In this document: positions 8,625 to 18,007 of the stretch, one piece after another
Layout: each line of letters opens with the position of its first letter
Numbering within the stretch: the first letter of the stretch is position 1
DNA from: Pseudarthrobacter siccitolerans
Lineage (GTDB): Bacteria; Actinomycetota; Actinomycetes; Actinomycetales; Micrococcaceae
Assembly (NCBI RefSeq): GCF_001046895.1
Contig: NZ_CAQI01000025.1
Span: forward strand, 1 to 64,000
Direction: 5' to 3'
Length of the DNA stretch: 64,000 bases
Notes under the pieces: model-generated
Database searches by the model: none
Seen by the model: the letters and a program-made list of their open reading frames with translations, nothing else
Told to the model about the DNA's origin: nothing
Position numbers and translations under genes: made by a program

Positions 8625-8842
8625 CCAAAAACGTAACACTTGGCGGGCGGGCCCGCACCGCCGTCGTCGTCATGTTCCGTAACTGAAGCTCCCTGGAGCA
8701 GCTTGGGCAGCATCGCGGCCTTTTCCGGAACGGACGACGGCGGGAGTCGCCACGGGCGGCGAATGTGCCTTGCGCCCGGCCACGGCATCCCCTGCGGATA
8801 GGGTTCTTGTGGGGGCGCCGCCCCGGTCGTCGGAGCAACTTC

Positions 8843-11341
8843 ATGGGGGTCCTCATCAGCACGCCAACAGCCGCCGCGCTGCAACACCCGTTCCGGCACC
8901 TTCGTTTGCAGAATCCACTGCTCCGGGCGGGTGCCGCCCTATTTGCCGCGGTGCTCGTTACCGTCCTCGCGCTCGTGCTGCCCGCCGGAGCCGCCAGGGC
9001 CGCCGAGACCTTCCCGGATGAGGGCAAACCGATGCTCGGCGCCGTCCTGGAATGGGGCGAGGATACGGCGGCCGGTTTCACCGACAGGCTGGGGGCCTCC
9101 CCGGCGCTTTTCGGGCACGACATCGCCCTGCCCTTCCGCGCATCGGAGGAGAACGACATCCGGGGCTTCCTGGAGCAGTCCGGGGGCCAGGGCGCCCACG
9201 CGATGCTCACGGTGAAGCCAGACGTTCCGCTTGACCAGGTCACTGCTGACGCCGCCGCATCGTTTGCAGGCGAGGTGCGGAAGCTTGCTTCGAACTTCAA
9301 GGGCCAGCTGCTGATCCGCTTTGCCCCGGACATGAATGCCAGTTGGGTGGAATGGGGCCAGCAGCCGGCCGCCTACCGGTCCGCCTTCCAGGCCATCTCC
9401 GCGGCCTTCGAGGAAACTGACGGCGAGCGAACCTCCATGGTGTGGGAGCCCTACCTGGGCAAGGACTACCCCTATGACCGGCACCGGAACGCTCCCGGAC
9501 CAGGCAGCGAGGGCTTCGCCCTGCTCGACACCAACGGTGACGGCGTGTGGAACGGTTCCGACGCGGCCTACGCCCCCTACTATCCCGGGGACGACGCCGT
9601 GGACTGGGTGGGCCTGACCGCCTTCCATGACGACACCGCCGGCGGCGCTCCCGTGAATACAGTGCCCCGGCAGAACGAGCTCCAGGAGATGCTCACCACC
9701 TCCGGAGCGGAAAACTTCTACGCCACATATGCGGCAGGGAAGGACAAGCCGTTCCTGCTGCAGACCGCCGCTTTCTATAGCCCGGCCTCCGGCGGCGCTT
9801 CGGACGTGGACATCAAAGTGGGTTGGTGGGACCACGTTCTGTCTGCCGCCACCTCCCCGGACTTCGCAAAGACAGCGGCAGTGGTCTGGGATGAGCGGAC
9901 CAGCGCCAGGGACACCGGCGTGGCGAGCATCGACTGGCTGCTCACCGGAAACCCTGCGGTTGCCGCCGCCGCACGCGACCGGCTCGAGGCTTCCCCCATG
10001 GTCACCGGTCCTGTCACTGACATCGCCGCCGGCTCTGGATACGTCCGGGCCAACACCCTTACTGGGCCGGCTGCCTGGACGGTAGGTGCGGCGCTGATCA
10101 TCCTCCTGGTGGCGCTGTGGCAGATCCCCCGGCGGGTCAACGCGGCAACAGCCTGGAGCTACACGGATCCCTCAACCAGAGACTCGCGGGTGGACCTGCT
10201 GCGGGGCATGGCCATTGTGTTCGTGGTGGTGAATCACCTGGGCATGACGTCGCTGTTCCAGCTGCTCACCCAGGAAGCGGTGGGTTTCGTTTCCGGGGCT
10301 GAACTGTTTGTCATCTTCTCCGGCCTGGTGGTGGGTATGGTCTACGGGCCCCGCGTCAAAGCGGACTTCGGGACGGTGGTGGACCTGACATCACGCCGTG
10401 CGGGCAAGCTCTACGTGACGGCGATCGCGGTGCTGATCGGCGTCTTCCTGATCTCGCTGCTGCGCCTATTCCAGACGGACACGCTCACCACCTTTGTTGA
10501 CCAGGGAACCGGCGGGGCAGGCCACACTGGCGCCGGGCGAACGTACGACCTCTACGCCGGGATGGAATCGCTGTTCCAGTTCCCGGTGCCGCCGCAGGTC
10601 CTGCCGGCGATCCTGCTGCTGCAGTTCGGGCCGTGGCAGTTCAACGTGATGGGCCTGTACGTGGTGCTGCTGCTCGTCAGCCCGCTGGTCCTCGCTGCGC
10701 TCAACCGCGGCAAGGCTGCGTGGGTGCTGGCCGCCGCCCTGGCCGTGTATGCAGTGGGGGCTGTGACCAGGTTCCGGATCCTGCCCTCGCAGTTTGAGGA
10801 CTCTTTCCCGTTGCTGGTGTGGCAGGTCCTGTTCGTGACCGGCCTGGTGGCCGGGTTCCACCGGCACCGCATTGTTTCGTGGTTCAGTGATCACACGTGG
10901 GCAGTGGCTGCCTGCACTGCGGCCGCGTTCATTTTCGCCTTTTTGTCCTGGGGCAACCCGTACCTTGCCAACGGCTTTGACGTAAGGCTCTCGATTGTTC
11001 CGGACACCGCTTACCGGAGCATGTACGACCTCTTTTTCGGCCGCACCTACCTGGCCCCGGGCCGGCTCCTGAACGTGCTGGTGCTGGTAGTGGCTGCCTA
11101 CGCATTCCTGACGGCCTACTGGAAGCCGGTGGCACGCGCCCTGGGTTGGTTCCTGATTCCGCTGGGCCGGGCAACCCTGTACGTCTTTATCATCCACGTG
11201 GTCCTGATCGCCGTCATCGCCAACATTCCCGCCCTGCGCCAGGGTGATATCTGGATCAACACGGCAGCCTACGCGCTGGTCCTGGGGCTCCTGTGGGTGA
11301 TGGTCCGGACCCGCTTCCTCTTCCGGATCATTCCCACTTAG
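8843..11341 (+). CDS. membrane fusion: GH26-like extracytoplasmic domain plus OpgC-type acyltransferase
   Basis: An 832-residue protein. A membrane or signal segment at about 26-52 ends in AGAARA. A roughly 350-residue secreted domain resembling GH26 glycan hydrolases follows, with LLIRFAPDMNASWVEWG matching the usual RPxHEMNGxWxxWG block. A membrane helix follows near 420, and then about ten helices with the OpgC/acyltransferase-3 motif DSRVDLLRGMAIVFVVVNHLG. OpgC proteins add succinyl groups to periplasmic glucans. The catalytic Glu expected in HEMNG is Asp here, so the hydrolase domain may be inactive or only bind glycan. ATG 8843 has GGAG nine bases upstream; the frame extends to 8765 without support. 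Confidence 0.78.
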   Translation: MGVLISTPTAAALQHPFRHLRLQNPLLRAGAALFAAVLVTVLALVLPAGAARAAETFPDEGKPMLGAVLEWGEDTAAGFTDRLGASPALFGHDIALPFRASEENDIRGFLEQSGGQGAHAMLTVKPDVPLDQVTADAAASFAGEVRKLASNFKGQLLIRFAPDMNASWVEWGQQPAAYRSAFQAISAAFEETDGERTSMVWEPYLGKDYPYDRHRNAPGPGSEGFALLDTNGDGVWNGSDAAYAPYYPGDDAVDWVGLTAFHDDTAGGAPVNTVPRQNELQEMLTTSGAENFYATYAAGKDKPFLLQTAAFYSPASGGASDVDIKVGWWDHVLSAATSPDFAKTAAVVWDERTSARDTGVASIDWLLTGNPAVAAAARDRLEASPMVTGPVTDIAAGSGYVRANTLTGPAAWTVGAALIILLVALWQIPRRVNAATAWSYTDPSTRDSRVDLLRGMAIVFVVVNHLGMTSLFQLLTQEAVGFVSGAELFVIFSGLVVGMVYGPRVKADFGTVVDLTSRRAGKLYVTAIAVLIGVFLISLLRLFQTDTLTTFVDQGTGGAGHTGAGRTYDLYAGMESLFQFPVPPQVLPAILLLQFGPWQFNVMGLYVVLLLVSPLVLAALNRGKAAWVLAAALAVYAVGAVTRFRILPSQFEDSFPLLVWQVLFVTGLVAGFHRHRIVSWFSDHTWAVAACTAAAFIFAFLSWGNPYLANGFDVRLSIVPDTAYRSMYDLFFGRTYLAPGRLLNVLVLVVAAYAFLTAYWKPVARALGWFLIPLGRATLYVFIIHVVLIAVIANIPALRQGDIWINTAAYALVLGLLWVMVRTRFLFRIIPT

Positions 11342-15883: not shown

Positions 15884-18007
15884 TCAGGCGTCGGGGAACT
15901 CCGCGCCCAGCGTCGAGAGGACCCCGAAGGCCTTGGTGCGGATTTCCTCGTACTCCTCGTCGGGCACAGAGTCGGCCGTGATGGCGCCGCCGACGCCGAG
16001 GGTCAGTTCCGCGGTCCCGTCGCCAACGGCCCTGGTCACCAGCGTCCGGATGGCGACGGCGAGGTCCGTCGCCCCGTTCAGCGAGAAGTAGCCGATGGCA
16101 CCGGAATAGAGCCCGCGACCGTCGCCTTCAAGCCGGTCCAGGATGGCCATGGTGCTGATCTTCGGCGCACCGGTCATGGAGCCGGCAGGAAAACACGCTG
16201 CCACCGCCTCGGCCCGCGACGATCCGCGCTGCAAGTGCGCGTCGATGGTGCTCACCATCTGGTGGACGGTGGCGTAACTTTCGATGGCGCAGAGCCGGCT
16301 GACGGTCACGGAGCCTGGGACGGCGAAGTGGCTGAGGTCGTTCCGCAGCAGGTCCACAATCATGATGTTCTCGGCGCGGTCCTTCAGGGACGTCTCAAGA
16401 TCGCTGCGCAGCGCGGCGTCCTCCGCCGGATCGGAGGCACGGCGGCGGGTGCCTTTGATGGGTTCCGCGCGCATGCCGCCGTCGGAGGCTATCTTGAGGA
16501 AGCGCTCGGGCGACGTGCTGGCCACGGCCAGGCTGCCGAACCGCAGGTAGCTGGCAAAGGGCGCCGGGTTCTTGCGGCGCAAGGCCAGATAGGCCCGCCA
16601 GGGGTCCAGCGCTTCCGCCGGGATCCGGGCCGACAGCATGGTGGTCAGGCACACCTCGTAGGTGTTTCCTTCAGCGATTTCGTGCTGGGCGGCAGCGATC
16701 TTCTCACGGTATGCCGCACCCGTGTCCCGGCTTCTGAAGGCGGGCGCTTGGGGAAGTACGACGCCGGTGCTGCCGTCGGCATGGGCGTGGCGGGCCGGTT
16801 GGGCTGCCGGACCGGAAGCGTTTTCGACTGCTGCGCGGGCTTCGTTGAGCCATTCGTGGCAATCGGGGGCGTCGAGGGCCAGCAACCATGCGGCTCCTTC
16901 CGCGTGGTCCAGGACCACAGCCCTTCCGGCGAAGACCAGTGCGGCGTCAGGGGTGGGAGCGGAATGATCAGTGCCGCCGGTTTCCCGTTTGAGTTCGTAC
17001 CCCAGGCAGCCGAGCCAGCCCAGCGTGAATTCGCCCGGGTAGCCGTCCGGGGTTTTGACGGCCGCGTCGCCCCAGACGGTGTCCAGCCAGCGGAAGAAAG
17101 GGCCTTCCATTGTGGCCGAGGCGCAGCCTGCCCGGATGCTGCTGGTGCCGGAACGATGGGTCACGGACTGGCCGAGCAGGCCACCGTCATCCGCCATGAT
17201 GCTGAAGCGGCTGCGCCCGGCGGCCGCAGATGTGACCCGCTCCTCCCGGGCAGCGCCCTCCCCGGCAGTGGCCCCGCTGGAAAAGCCTGCGCCGGGAGCA
17301 CCGGCGTTTGAAGAATCCAGCCAGACGGCATTCGCCGAGGCGCCATAGAGGGAACTGAACAAGGAGGCGGCGTCCGGGCGGCCGTCCAGGCGGTGGGCGT
17401 GGAGGCTGAGGGCACGCCGGGCCGAAAGTTCGGGGGCCAGTGCGGGAGCGAGTGAGGGCAGGTAGGGGAGAAGCTGCAGCACGTCGGTCGGGGCAGACCC
17501 GTCGGCGCGGTTCAGCACGCGCACGTCTGCATGCTGAGGGACGTCGTCGGCGCCCAGCCACTCCTCTTCCTGCGCAGCCCACTGGTCCCAGTAGGGTTCG
17601 TAGGTTCCGCCGTCGCGGTCCAGGGCGCGCGACCGGCGGATGTCATCAGGTGAGTCCGCCCAGATGACGGCGCTGAGCAGGGGCCGCGCCGCGGCGGCGG
17701 CCGCGCCTACGCCCTCAACGATCACAATCTCGGCGGGCAGCGTGACCCGGGAATCGCCGTCGTAATGCCTTTCCCAGTCCCAGCTGGTCCAGGTGGCGGC
17801 GTCGCCACGGCTCAGGGGTTCCAGAACCGTGGCGACGTAGCGGTCGATGCCCGCCAGCAGCCCGTTCCAGCCCGGGTAGATGTCCTCGAGGTGGAACAGG
17901 GAAACCTTGTGGTGGGCGCGCAGCCGTGCCGCCAGTTCGACGGCGAGGGTGGTCTTCCCTGCGCCCGAGCGCCCGTCGATGGCAATGATGACGGGGGCTG
18001 GGCTCAT
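15884..18007 (-). CDS. pabB: uridine-kinase-like P-loop domain fused to aminodeoxychorismate synthase component I
   Basis: A 707-residue fusion. Residues 1-200 form a P-loop kinase-like domain with Walker A GRSGAGKTT at 12-20 and a hydrophobic strand ending in VEGVG near 99. Residues from about 210 form a chorismate-binding enzyme, with PIKGTRRRASD, SLKDRAENIMIVDLLRNDL and FPAGSMTGAPK as the active-site blocks. PabB makes aminodeoxychorismate from chorismate and ammonia for folate. The N-terminal partner would normally be the glutaminase PabA, which is absent here. Anthranilate synthase is less likely given pabC nearby. Confidence 0.8.
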   Translation of the reverse strand: MSPAPVIIAIDGRSGAGKTTLAVELAARLRAHHKVSLFHLEDIYPGWNGLLAGIDRYVATVLEPLSRGDAATWTSWDWERHYDGDSRVTLPAEIVIVEGVGAAAAAARPLLSAVIWADSPDDIRRSRALDRDGGTYEPYWDQWAAQEEEWLGADDVPQHADVRVLNRADGSAPTDVLQLLPYLPSLAPALAPELSARRALSLHAHRLDGRPDAASLFSSLYGASANAVWLDSSNAGAPGAGFSSGATAGEGAAREERVTSAAAGRSRFSIMADDGGLLGQSVTHRSGTSSIRAGCASATMEGPFFRWLDTVWGDAAVKTPDGYPGEFTLGWLGCLGYELKRETGGTDHSAPTPDAALVFAGRAVVLDHAEGAAWLLALDAPDCHEWLNEARAAVENASGPAAQPARHAHADGSTGVVLPQAPAFRSRDTGAAYREKIAAAQHEIAEGNTYEVCLTTMLSARIPAEALDPWRAYLALRRKNPAPFASYLRFGSLAVASTSPERFLKIASDGGMRAEPIKGTRRRASDPAEDAALRSDLETSLKDRAENIMIVDLLRNDLSHFAVPGSVTVSRLCAIESYATVHQMVSTIDAHLQRGSSRAEAVAACFPAGSMTGAPKISTMAILDRLEGDGRGLYSGAIGYFSLNGATDLAVAIRTLVTRAVGDGTAELTLGVGGAITADSVPDEEYEEIRTKAFGVLSTLGAEFPDA

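Follow-up and report, generated by a model that had tools for sequence, protein, structure and literature searches.

Osmoregulated periplasmic glucans have been described for Gram-negative bacteria, mostly Proteobacteria, in the relevant parts of the literature (PMC10514313; PMC4726272), and the OpgC proteins treated in the corresponding section of the AT3 review are stand-alone and come from Gram-negative bacteria (PMC9558356). Their family, PF10129, is counted within the TmAT superfamily in the pertinent section of PMC12423673. TmAT proteins are recognized by DxxR and FxxxxG motifs, an arginine on TMH3, a tyrosine on TMH9 and a DxxRx10H motif, and the serine of SxxxY is not required in them (PMC12423673). 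In the AT3-SGNH proteins OafA, OafB and OatA, a membrane acyltransferase is combined with an extracytoplasmic, carbohydrate-facing SGNH domain, which is thought to carry out the final transfer (PMC12423673; PMC9558356, in the sections concerned). The same section of the AT3 review asks how AT3-only proteins function when no SGNH domain is fused to them, whether a partner is needed and whether the way in which the acceptor is presented makes the difference (PMC9558356).

Two further systems are close in gene content. The ccsZABHI operon of O-acetylated cellulose in Clostridia, as far as the available text goes, unites at one locus a cellulose-synthase-like GT2 with PilZ, its cognate glycanase CcsZ, a GH5 enzyme, and O-acetylation by MBOAT and DHHW proteins (PMC7710045). 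The Vibrio syp polysaccharide locus is controlled by a STAS protein through the SypA/SypE switch, with kinase/phosphatase control, according to the part of PMC8256260 that treats it. Among exopolysaccharide clusters of Actinoplanes, one holds a GH26 gene and another an acyltransferase 3 gene, and a GH26-OpgC fusion was not found in the available portion of that description (PMC13390465), nor did the open-licence PMC literature searched yield one among the matches listed. The fusion gene reported here consists of parts from known families, and their combination is a new variant.

The window, a stretch of 64,000 nucleotides from Pseudarthrobacter siccitolerans that was analysed as a whole, carries on its plus strand at 8843..11341 one open reading frame, from an ATG at 8843 to a stop codon ending at 11341, which encodes 832 amino acids; an in-frame GTG upstream, at 8765, is an alternative start that would give a protein of 858 residues. 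The features of the gene are as follows.

8843..11341, plus strand: whole fusion gene, 832 amino acids, with full-length homologues in relatives
8921..9004, plus strand: N-terminal hydrophobic segment with an A-x-A-like end (residues 27-54), seen in the sequence and as a helix at 25-45 in the model; probably a signal peptide or anchor
9011..10012, plus strand: GH26-fold domain (residues 57-390), from profile and structure comparison
9317..9337, plus strand: RFAPDMN, the acid/base block, in which the HE of GH26 is replaced by PD (P162, D163)
9527..9562, plus strand: DTNGDGVWNGSD, a calcium-loop-like insert and putative calcium site (residues 229-240), with D229 and D240 in 64/64 fusions
9761..9763, plus strand: Q307, at the position of the GH26 nucleophile, which is Glu in catalytic relatives, from alignments
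10067..10135, plus strand: linking helix of the AlphaFold2 model (residues 409-431), probably transmembrane
10178..11317, plus strand: OpgC_C / TmAT-fold acyltransferase domain (residues 446-825), from Pfam and a structure match
10193..10237, plus strand: DxxRx10H motif (D451, R454, H465) in 64/64 fusions, the motif as in PMC12423673

In the AlphaFold2 model the helical bundle of the transferase starts at residue 448. Such bundles begin in the cytoplasm in related acyltransferases, and if this holds here, the soluble domain would lie outside the cell; the hydrophobic helices that flank the GH26-like domain likewise suggest that it is probably extracytoplasmic. A sub-threshold NCBIfam sortase-signal match on the protein was rejected as a chance hit.

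An earlier note on this DNA had read the gene as a fusion of a GH26-like domain with an OpgC-type membrane acyltransferase and had proposed structure prediction with an overlay on GH26 enzymes. The open reading frame and its OpgC_C match bear out the fusion, and the overlay returned a GH26 fold. Pfam gave no match to the first 440 residues (E≤1), and its GH26 model did not match the protein at the same threshold, and a profile and a structure comparison were therefore used to test the fold; a phmmer search of the whole protein against PDB likewise had no match. When a profile was made from the domain and its relatives, it matched the GH26 lichenase CtLic26A (E 2e-7) and, more weakly, mannanases and xylanases. 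The Pfam GH26 model matches the solo relatives L019 (1.6e-10) and L002 (1.8e-6), and its value for a deep-branching fusion, L017, is 0.0034, below the cut-off. With an AlphaFold2 model of the full protein (pLDDT 79.8), the 17 best Foldseek rows were GH26 entries, led by 6zpl_C (titled Endoglucanase H), and VIA-align ranked GH26 structures first (Z up to 26.0; 261-281 residues superposed at rmsd 2.8-3.0), ahead of GH1-type beta-glucosidases as the first non-GH26 rows (Z 19.5); for some of the rows in both comparisons, the family is our assignment. Profile and model together argue that the N-terminal domain is a GH26-like (beta/alpha)8 barrel of clan GH-A. No SGNH family was found in the protein with Pfam at E≤1, and the extra domain matches GH26 instead. 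The protein thus resembles the AT3-SGNH enzymes in pairing a membrane acyltransferase with a probably extracytoplasmic, carbohydrate-facing domain, but here that domain is N-terminal, has a GH26 fold and carries changed catalytic residues. With CtLic26A and the GH26 mannanases it shares the fold, the YPGD loop and two tryptophans after the acid/base block; unlike them, it has Pro-Asp in place of His-Glu and Gln in place of the nucleophile Glu.

The C-terminal part is matched by Pfam OpgC_C (PF10129) over residues 446-825 (E 5.5e-66) and also by the wider family Acyl_transf_3 (6e-12). For a model of residues 429-832 (pLDDT 78.6, pTM 0.82), human HGSNAT was the best match (Z 21.8, 307 residues aligned at rmsd 4.4), followed by GWT1 at Z 12.9, all other listed rows being at 4.0 or lower. 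Foldseek had no match for this model at E≤0.001, which leaves the second aligner as the source of the HGSNAT match, and the sequence profile A4, made from the OpgC part, matched no PDB chain at E≤0.01. The model nevertheless points to a TmAT fold. D451, R454, H465, F489, G494, R519 and Y780, placed on the TmAT helices by motif, are invariant in the 64 fusions of our alignment (A3), and the serine of SxxxY is not kept in them (R/Q776). The protein thus has the OpgC_C domain, the predicted TmAT fold and the DxxRx10H motif in common with known OpgC, and differs from it in the GH26-fold domain in front and in its likely partner, a cellulose-synthase-like gene set. Of 246 genomes sampled from the class, 23 have OpgC_C at E≤0.001, and in 20 of these the match is above the curated cut-off. 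Fused forms outside the genus, in a survey that covered part of the weak OpgC_C matches, were found in five genomes (G083, G133, G210, G219 and G255), all of one family. The P. siccitolerans genome also encodes a second, stand-alone OpgC_C protein (L023, G000:C31:20226-21239, a 388-aa frame, E 6.6e-34).

Besides the window protein, alignment A3 contains 63 fusion loci from a genome scan that used two OpgC peptide patterns and so found at least 70 loci; L028, L036, L056, L078 and L082 (to limit the number of rows), L075 (a stop) and L085 (partial) were left out. The earlier note had pointed to PDMN in the block that normally reads HEMN. It is present at residues 162-165 (window 9326-9337), and its conservation (P162 in 64/64, D163 in 51/64) makes a sequencing accident untenable. 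Since P162 is invariant, the His before the acid/base residue is gone throughout A3; at position 163 itself, D (51) is accompanied by Q (6), E (5), A (1) and N (1). The claim that the catalytic Glu is replaced holds for the acid/base residue, where HE has become PD, and had missed a second change, that of the nucleophile Glu on beta7 to Q307. Position 307 is Q in 35 of the 64 fusions, E in 25, H in 2 and R in 2. MAFFT aligns it with CtLic26A residue 222, which we take to be the nucleophile, and HMMER aligns position 163 with residue 109, presumably the acid/base; the HMMER alignment is gapped at the nucleophile, and the column of position 307 rests on MAFFT and on a KP...E motif. The CtLic26A structure titled as its Michaelis complex (2cip) has Gln at 222 and 2v3g has Glu, so the window protein naturally carries the Gln seen in 2cip at this position.

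A quick tree was built on the OpgC columns only from 69 fusions, of which 64 belong to A3 and five to another family. It requires at least six changes at position 163 and at least eight at position 307 when all residues are counted, and at least three and at least six, respectively, for Glu against not-Glu; the direction of change is resolved in part. Glu163 occurs in five A3 rows that are nested among rows lacking it, so a regain is possible. Both Glu are kept in nine of the 69, namely five of the 64 in A3 (L061, L068, L069, L072 and L073) and four of the five in the other family, where PEMN accompanies the nucleophile Glu (L094, L095, L096 and L098); part of the family may therefore still be catalytic. 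The fifth member of that family (L116, genome G219) has PEMN, Arg at 307 and a stop codon in its GH26 stretch, and may therefore be a decaying copy. W168, W171, W201, W328 and W349 are invariant in all 64 A3 fusions. The residue after H262 is Trp in the solo relatives (YHWG) and Asp in 63 of the 64 A3 rows, so that the pocket has changed as well. In four pairs compared by NG86, dN/dS was 0.11-0.17 in the GH26-like domain, which indicates purifying selection there, and 0.07-0.11 in OpgC.

One explanation of this pattern is that the GH26-like domain is still an enzyme of altered mechanism, with Asp as its acid or as a transglycosylase, and trims or transfers the glycan before acylation. Purifying selection and the fusions that keep both Glu are in keeping with such activity. 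We hold it to be unlikely, given that the nucleophile position is occupied by Gln in 35 A3 rows, the window protein among them, and by His or Arg in four more, and that the repeated changes between Glu and not-Glu argue against required catalysis in those lineages. For the same reasons we do not follow the earlier statement that the general acid is Asp: the nucleophile is replaced too, positions 163 and 307 have changed repeatedly among the fusions, and a non-catalytic role fits Q307 and these changes better. The likeliest role of the domain would be to hold a glycan.

Some observations on GH26 relatives and on damaged copies may be added here. The P. siccitolerans genome has one canonical GH26 gene (C32:74212, HEMN with IAET). 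Its solo relative L002 (G000:C32:93708-94676) reads PDMN and keeps the nucleophile Glu (PETAA), and, to judge from these residues, represents an intermediate state among proteins that are not fusions. Fusion copies that are broken or interrupted occur in G017, G003, G401, G219 and at L075, which suggests occasional loss or sequencing error.

To describe the gene neighbourhood, 75 fusion loci were used, the 70 from the genome scan and five of another family; the flank query proteins were taken from loci inside this set, and the query loci therefore match themselves. In 22 of the 75 loci the fetched flank contains a cellulose-synthase-like GT2; in the other 53 it shows no synthase, some flanks ending at contig ends. 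By group, the GT2 was found in 9/9 loci of Microbacteriaceae, 5/5 of the other family, 2/6 of Kocuria and 6/55 of the remaining Arthrobacter-type loci. The 75 flanks also hold STAS (20), HATPase (21) and separate GH26 genes (18), as well as a SpoIIE domain in 21 (GAF and receiver matches left out). Among the 22 loci with GT2, STAS and HATPase are both present in 20 (all except L071 and L090) and a SpoIIE domain in 17. The separate GH26 genes, read mainly at the HEMN block and at the nucleophile in part, have HEMN in 16 of the 18; of the other two, L040 is a fragment only and the one at L148 reads PEMN.

In the other family the fusion, SpoIIE, GT2, STAS and HATPase genes are all on one strand, in the order SpoIIE-GT2-STAS-HATPase-fusion at four of the five loci (L149-L152); at L148 the fusion precedes SpoIIE, and the PEMN GH26-like protein, which lacks OpgC, follows HATPase. 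This protein (L148 3814-5598, G219) has a hydrophobic C-terminal stretch. At L084 of A. globiformis the reading frame of a histidine kinase continues into the fusion, beside which GH26, HATPase, STAS, GT2 and SpoIIE genes lie on the opposite strand. Cellulose synthases of solved structure are matched by the L086 GT2, the best match being 7lby (E 1.2e-62), presumably E. coli BcsA. Of the marks of a bcs-type operon, the GT2 is thus found (22/75 loci), and PilZ on the synthase is not, since Pfam gave no PilZ match in the three GT2 scanned (L086, L152 and that of P. siccitolerans). The loci resemble ccsZABHI in bringing together a cellulose-synthase-like GT2, a glycanase and a putative O-acylation function, but they have a PilZ-less synthase, GH26 and a TmAT protein with a built-in GH26 fold, as well as SpoIIE/STAS/HATPase genes. 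The latter recall the Vibrio syp switch in that STAS and kinase/phosphatase control would be linked to a polysaccharide locus, although for the fusion loci gene order is what suggests such control.

In the window the fusion is accompanied by genes for a Cys/Met PLP enzyme, a rhodanese, a TetR regulator, a PNPOx-like protein and a class IV aminotransferase, which are unrelated to glycans. At 15884-18007 on the minus strand lies a chorismate-binding, PabB-like enzyme (a 707-aa frame) with a weak N-terminal AAA_18 kinase-like stretch that is below the cut-off for AAA_18. The GT2 of the same genome (G000:C25:190337-192262) is 88% identical to that of A. globiformis and is surrounded by STAS, HATPase, SpoIIE-response regulator and histidine kinase genes; as the window is the start of the same contig, the fusion lies about 179 kb from the synthase set.

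We surveyed 150 genomes of the same genus, calling the fusion at E≤1e-60, and found the fusion in 60 and the synthase in 98: both were present in 59, the fusion only in one (G343), the synthase only in 39 and neither in 51. The synthase thus occurs in 59/60 genomes with the fusion against 39/90 without it (Fisher p 4e-14, kinship ignored). A synthase paralogue of 52% identity served as a control and is unassociated with the fusion in this small sample, the fusion being present in 6/13 genomes with the paralogue versus 54/137 without it (p 0.77, n=13). Three of the 60 fusions are broken (a stop in G017, a fragment in G003, a split in G401) and some synthase genes are split or interrupted (e.g., G026, G356 and G386), which may be real or due to assembly error. 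In three genomes (G008:C12, G023:C1 and G034:C31) the paralogue lies within about 0.65-0.75 kb of an OpgC-less GH26 relative, which in G034 is a stretch with two stops; this is a second case in which a synthase and GH26 are paired.

The fusion had also been proposed to be a self-contained machine for decorating surface glycans. The term is unsupported, given that the gene sits within a synthase cluster in other genera and co-occurs with the synthase in 59 of the 60 same-genus fusion genomes. It could be argued that the substrate of the fusion is some unrelated glycan of the envelope, such as lipomannan, which is succinylated in Micrococcus, and that the synthase link is ancestral only; the low share of Arthrobacter-type loci with a flanking synthase (6/55) agrees with this. 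That share must, however, be set against the continued presence of the synthase in all but one of the fusion genomes, and GH26 enzymes work on beta-linked chains, whereas lipomannan is alpha-linked, so that we give this explanation little credence. A third possibility, that the protein is an ordinary OpgC which succinylates osmoregulated periplasmic glucans, would follow from the Pfam OpgC_C match at face value. The 2015 Arthrobacter genome paper, in the section concerned, indeed places opgC of strain M2012083 under osmotic stress (PMC4342571), and L068, being a fusion from that strain, is probably this very gene. With such glucans described for Gram-negative bacteria, and with the OpgC proteins of the AT3 review standing alone, we consider it very improbable.

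We therefore favor, as a reasonably probable reading, that the fusion is an exopolysaccharide acyltransferase whose pseudo-GH26 domain holds the beta-glycan of a dedicated GT2 for O-acylation. The acceptor is probably a cellulose-like surface polymer and the acyl group most likely succinyl; since a range of beta-glycans are substrates of GH26 enzymes, the acceptor may be any of several. In such a scheme the cellulose-synthase-like GT2 would extrude a beta-linked chain, which the pseudo-GH26 domain would bind in its old substrate groove without cutting and hold next to the exit of the acyltransferase, while the OpgC bundle would carry the acyl group from CoA across the membrane to hydroxyls of the chain on the outer side. 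Trimming of the chain, the role that BcsZ or CcsZ has in cellulose operons, would fall to the separate HEMN GH26. SpoIIE, STAS and HATPase proteins form partner switches elsewhere, and from the order of the genes they may gate the synthase. More tentatively, and with somewhat less than even confidence, we suggest that the whole constitutes a hitherto undescribed actinobacterial exopolysaccharide system, with a PilZ-less synthase, a SpoIIE/STAS/HATPase switch that replaces c-di-GMP, and a transferase equipped with its own pseudo-glycanase clamp.

The combination is of interest for its conservation, for the repeated change of catalytic residues and for the synthase gene set that goes with it. 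If our reading is true, the question of how AT3-only proteins work would receive a direct and testable answer from a transferase to which a catalytically degraded glycanase is covalently joined. The finding also directs attention to common soil actinobacteria as carriers of an exopolysaccharide gene set whose candidate control system is unusual, and it suggests that reading opgC of Arthrobacter as a gene of osmoregulated periplasmic glucan synthesis may mislead.
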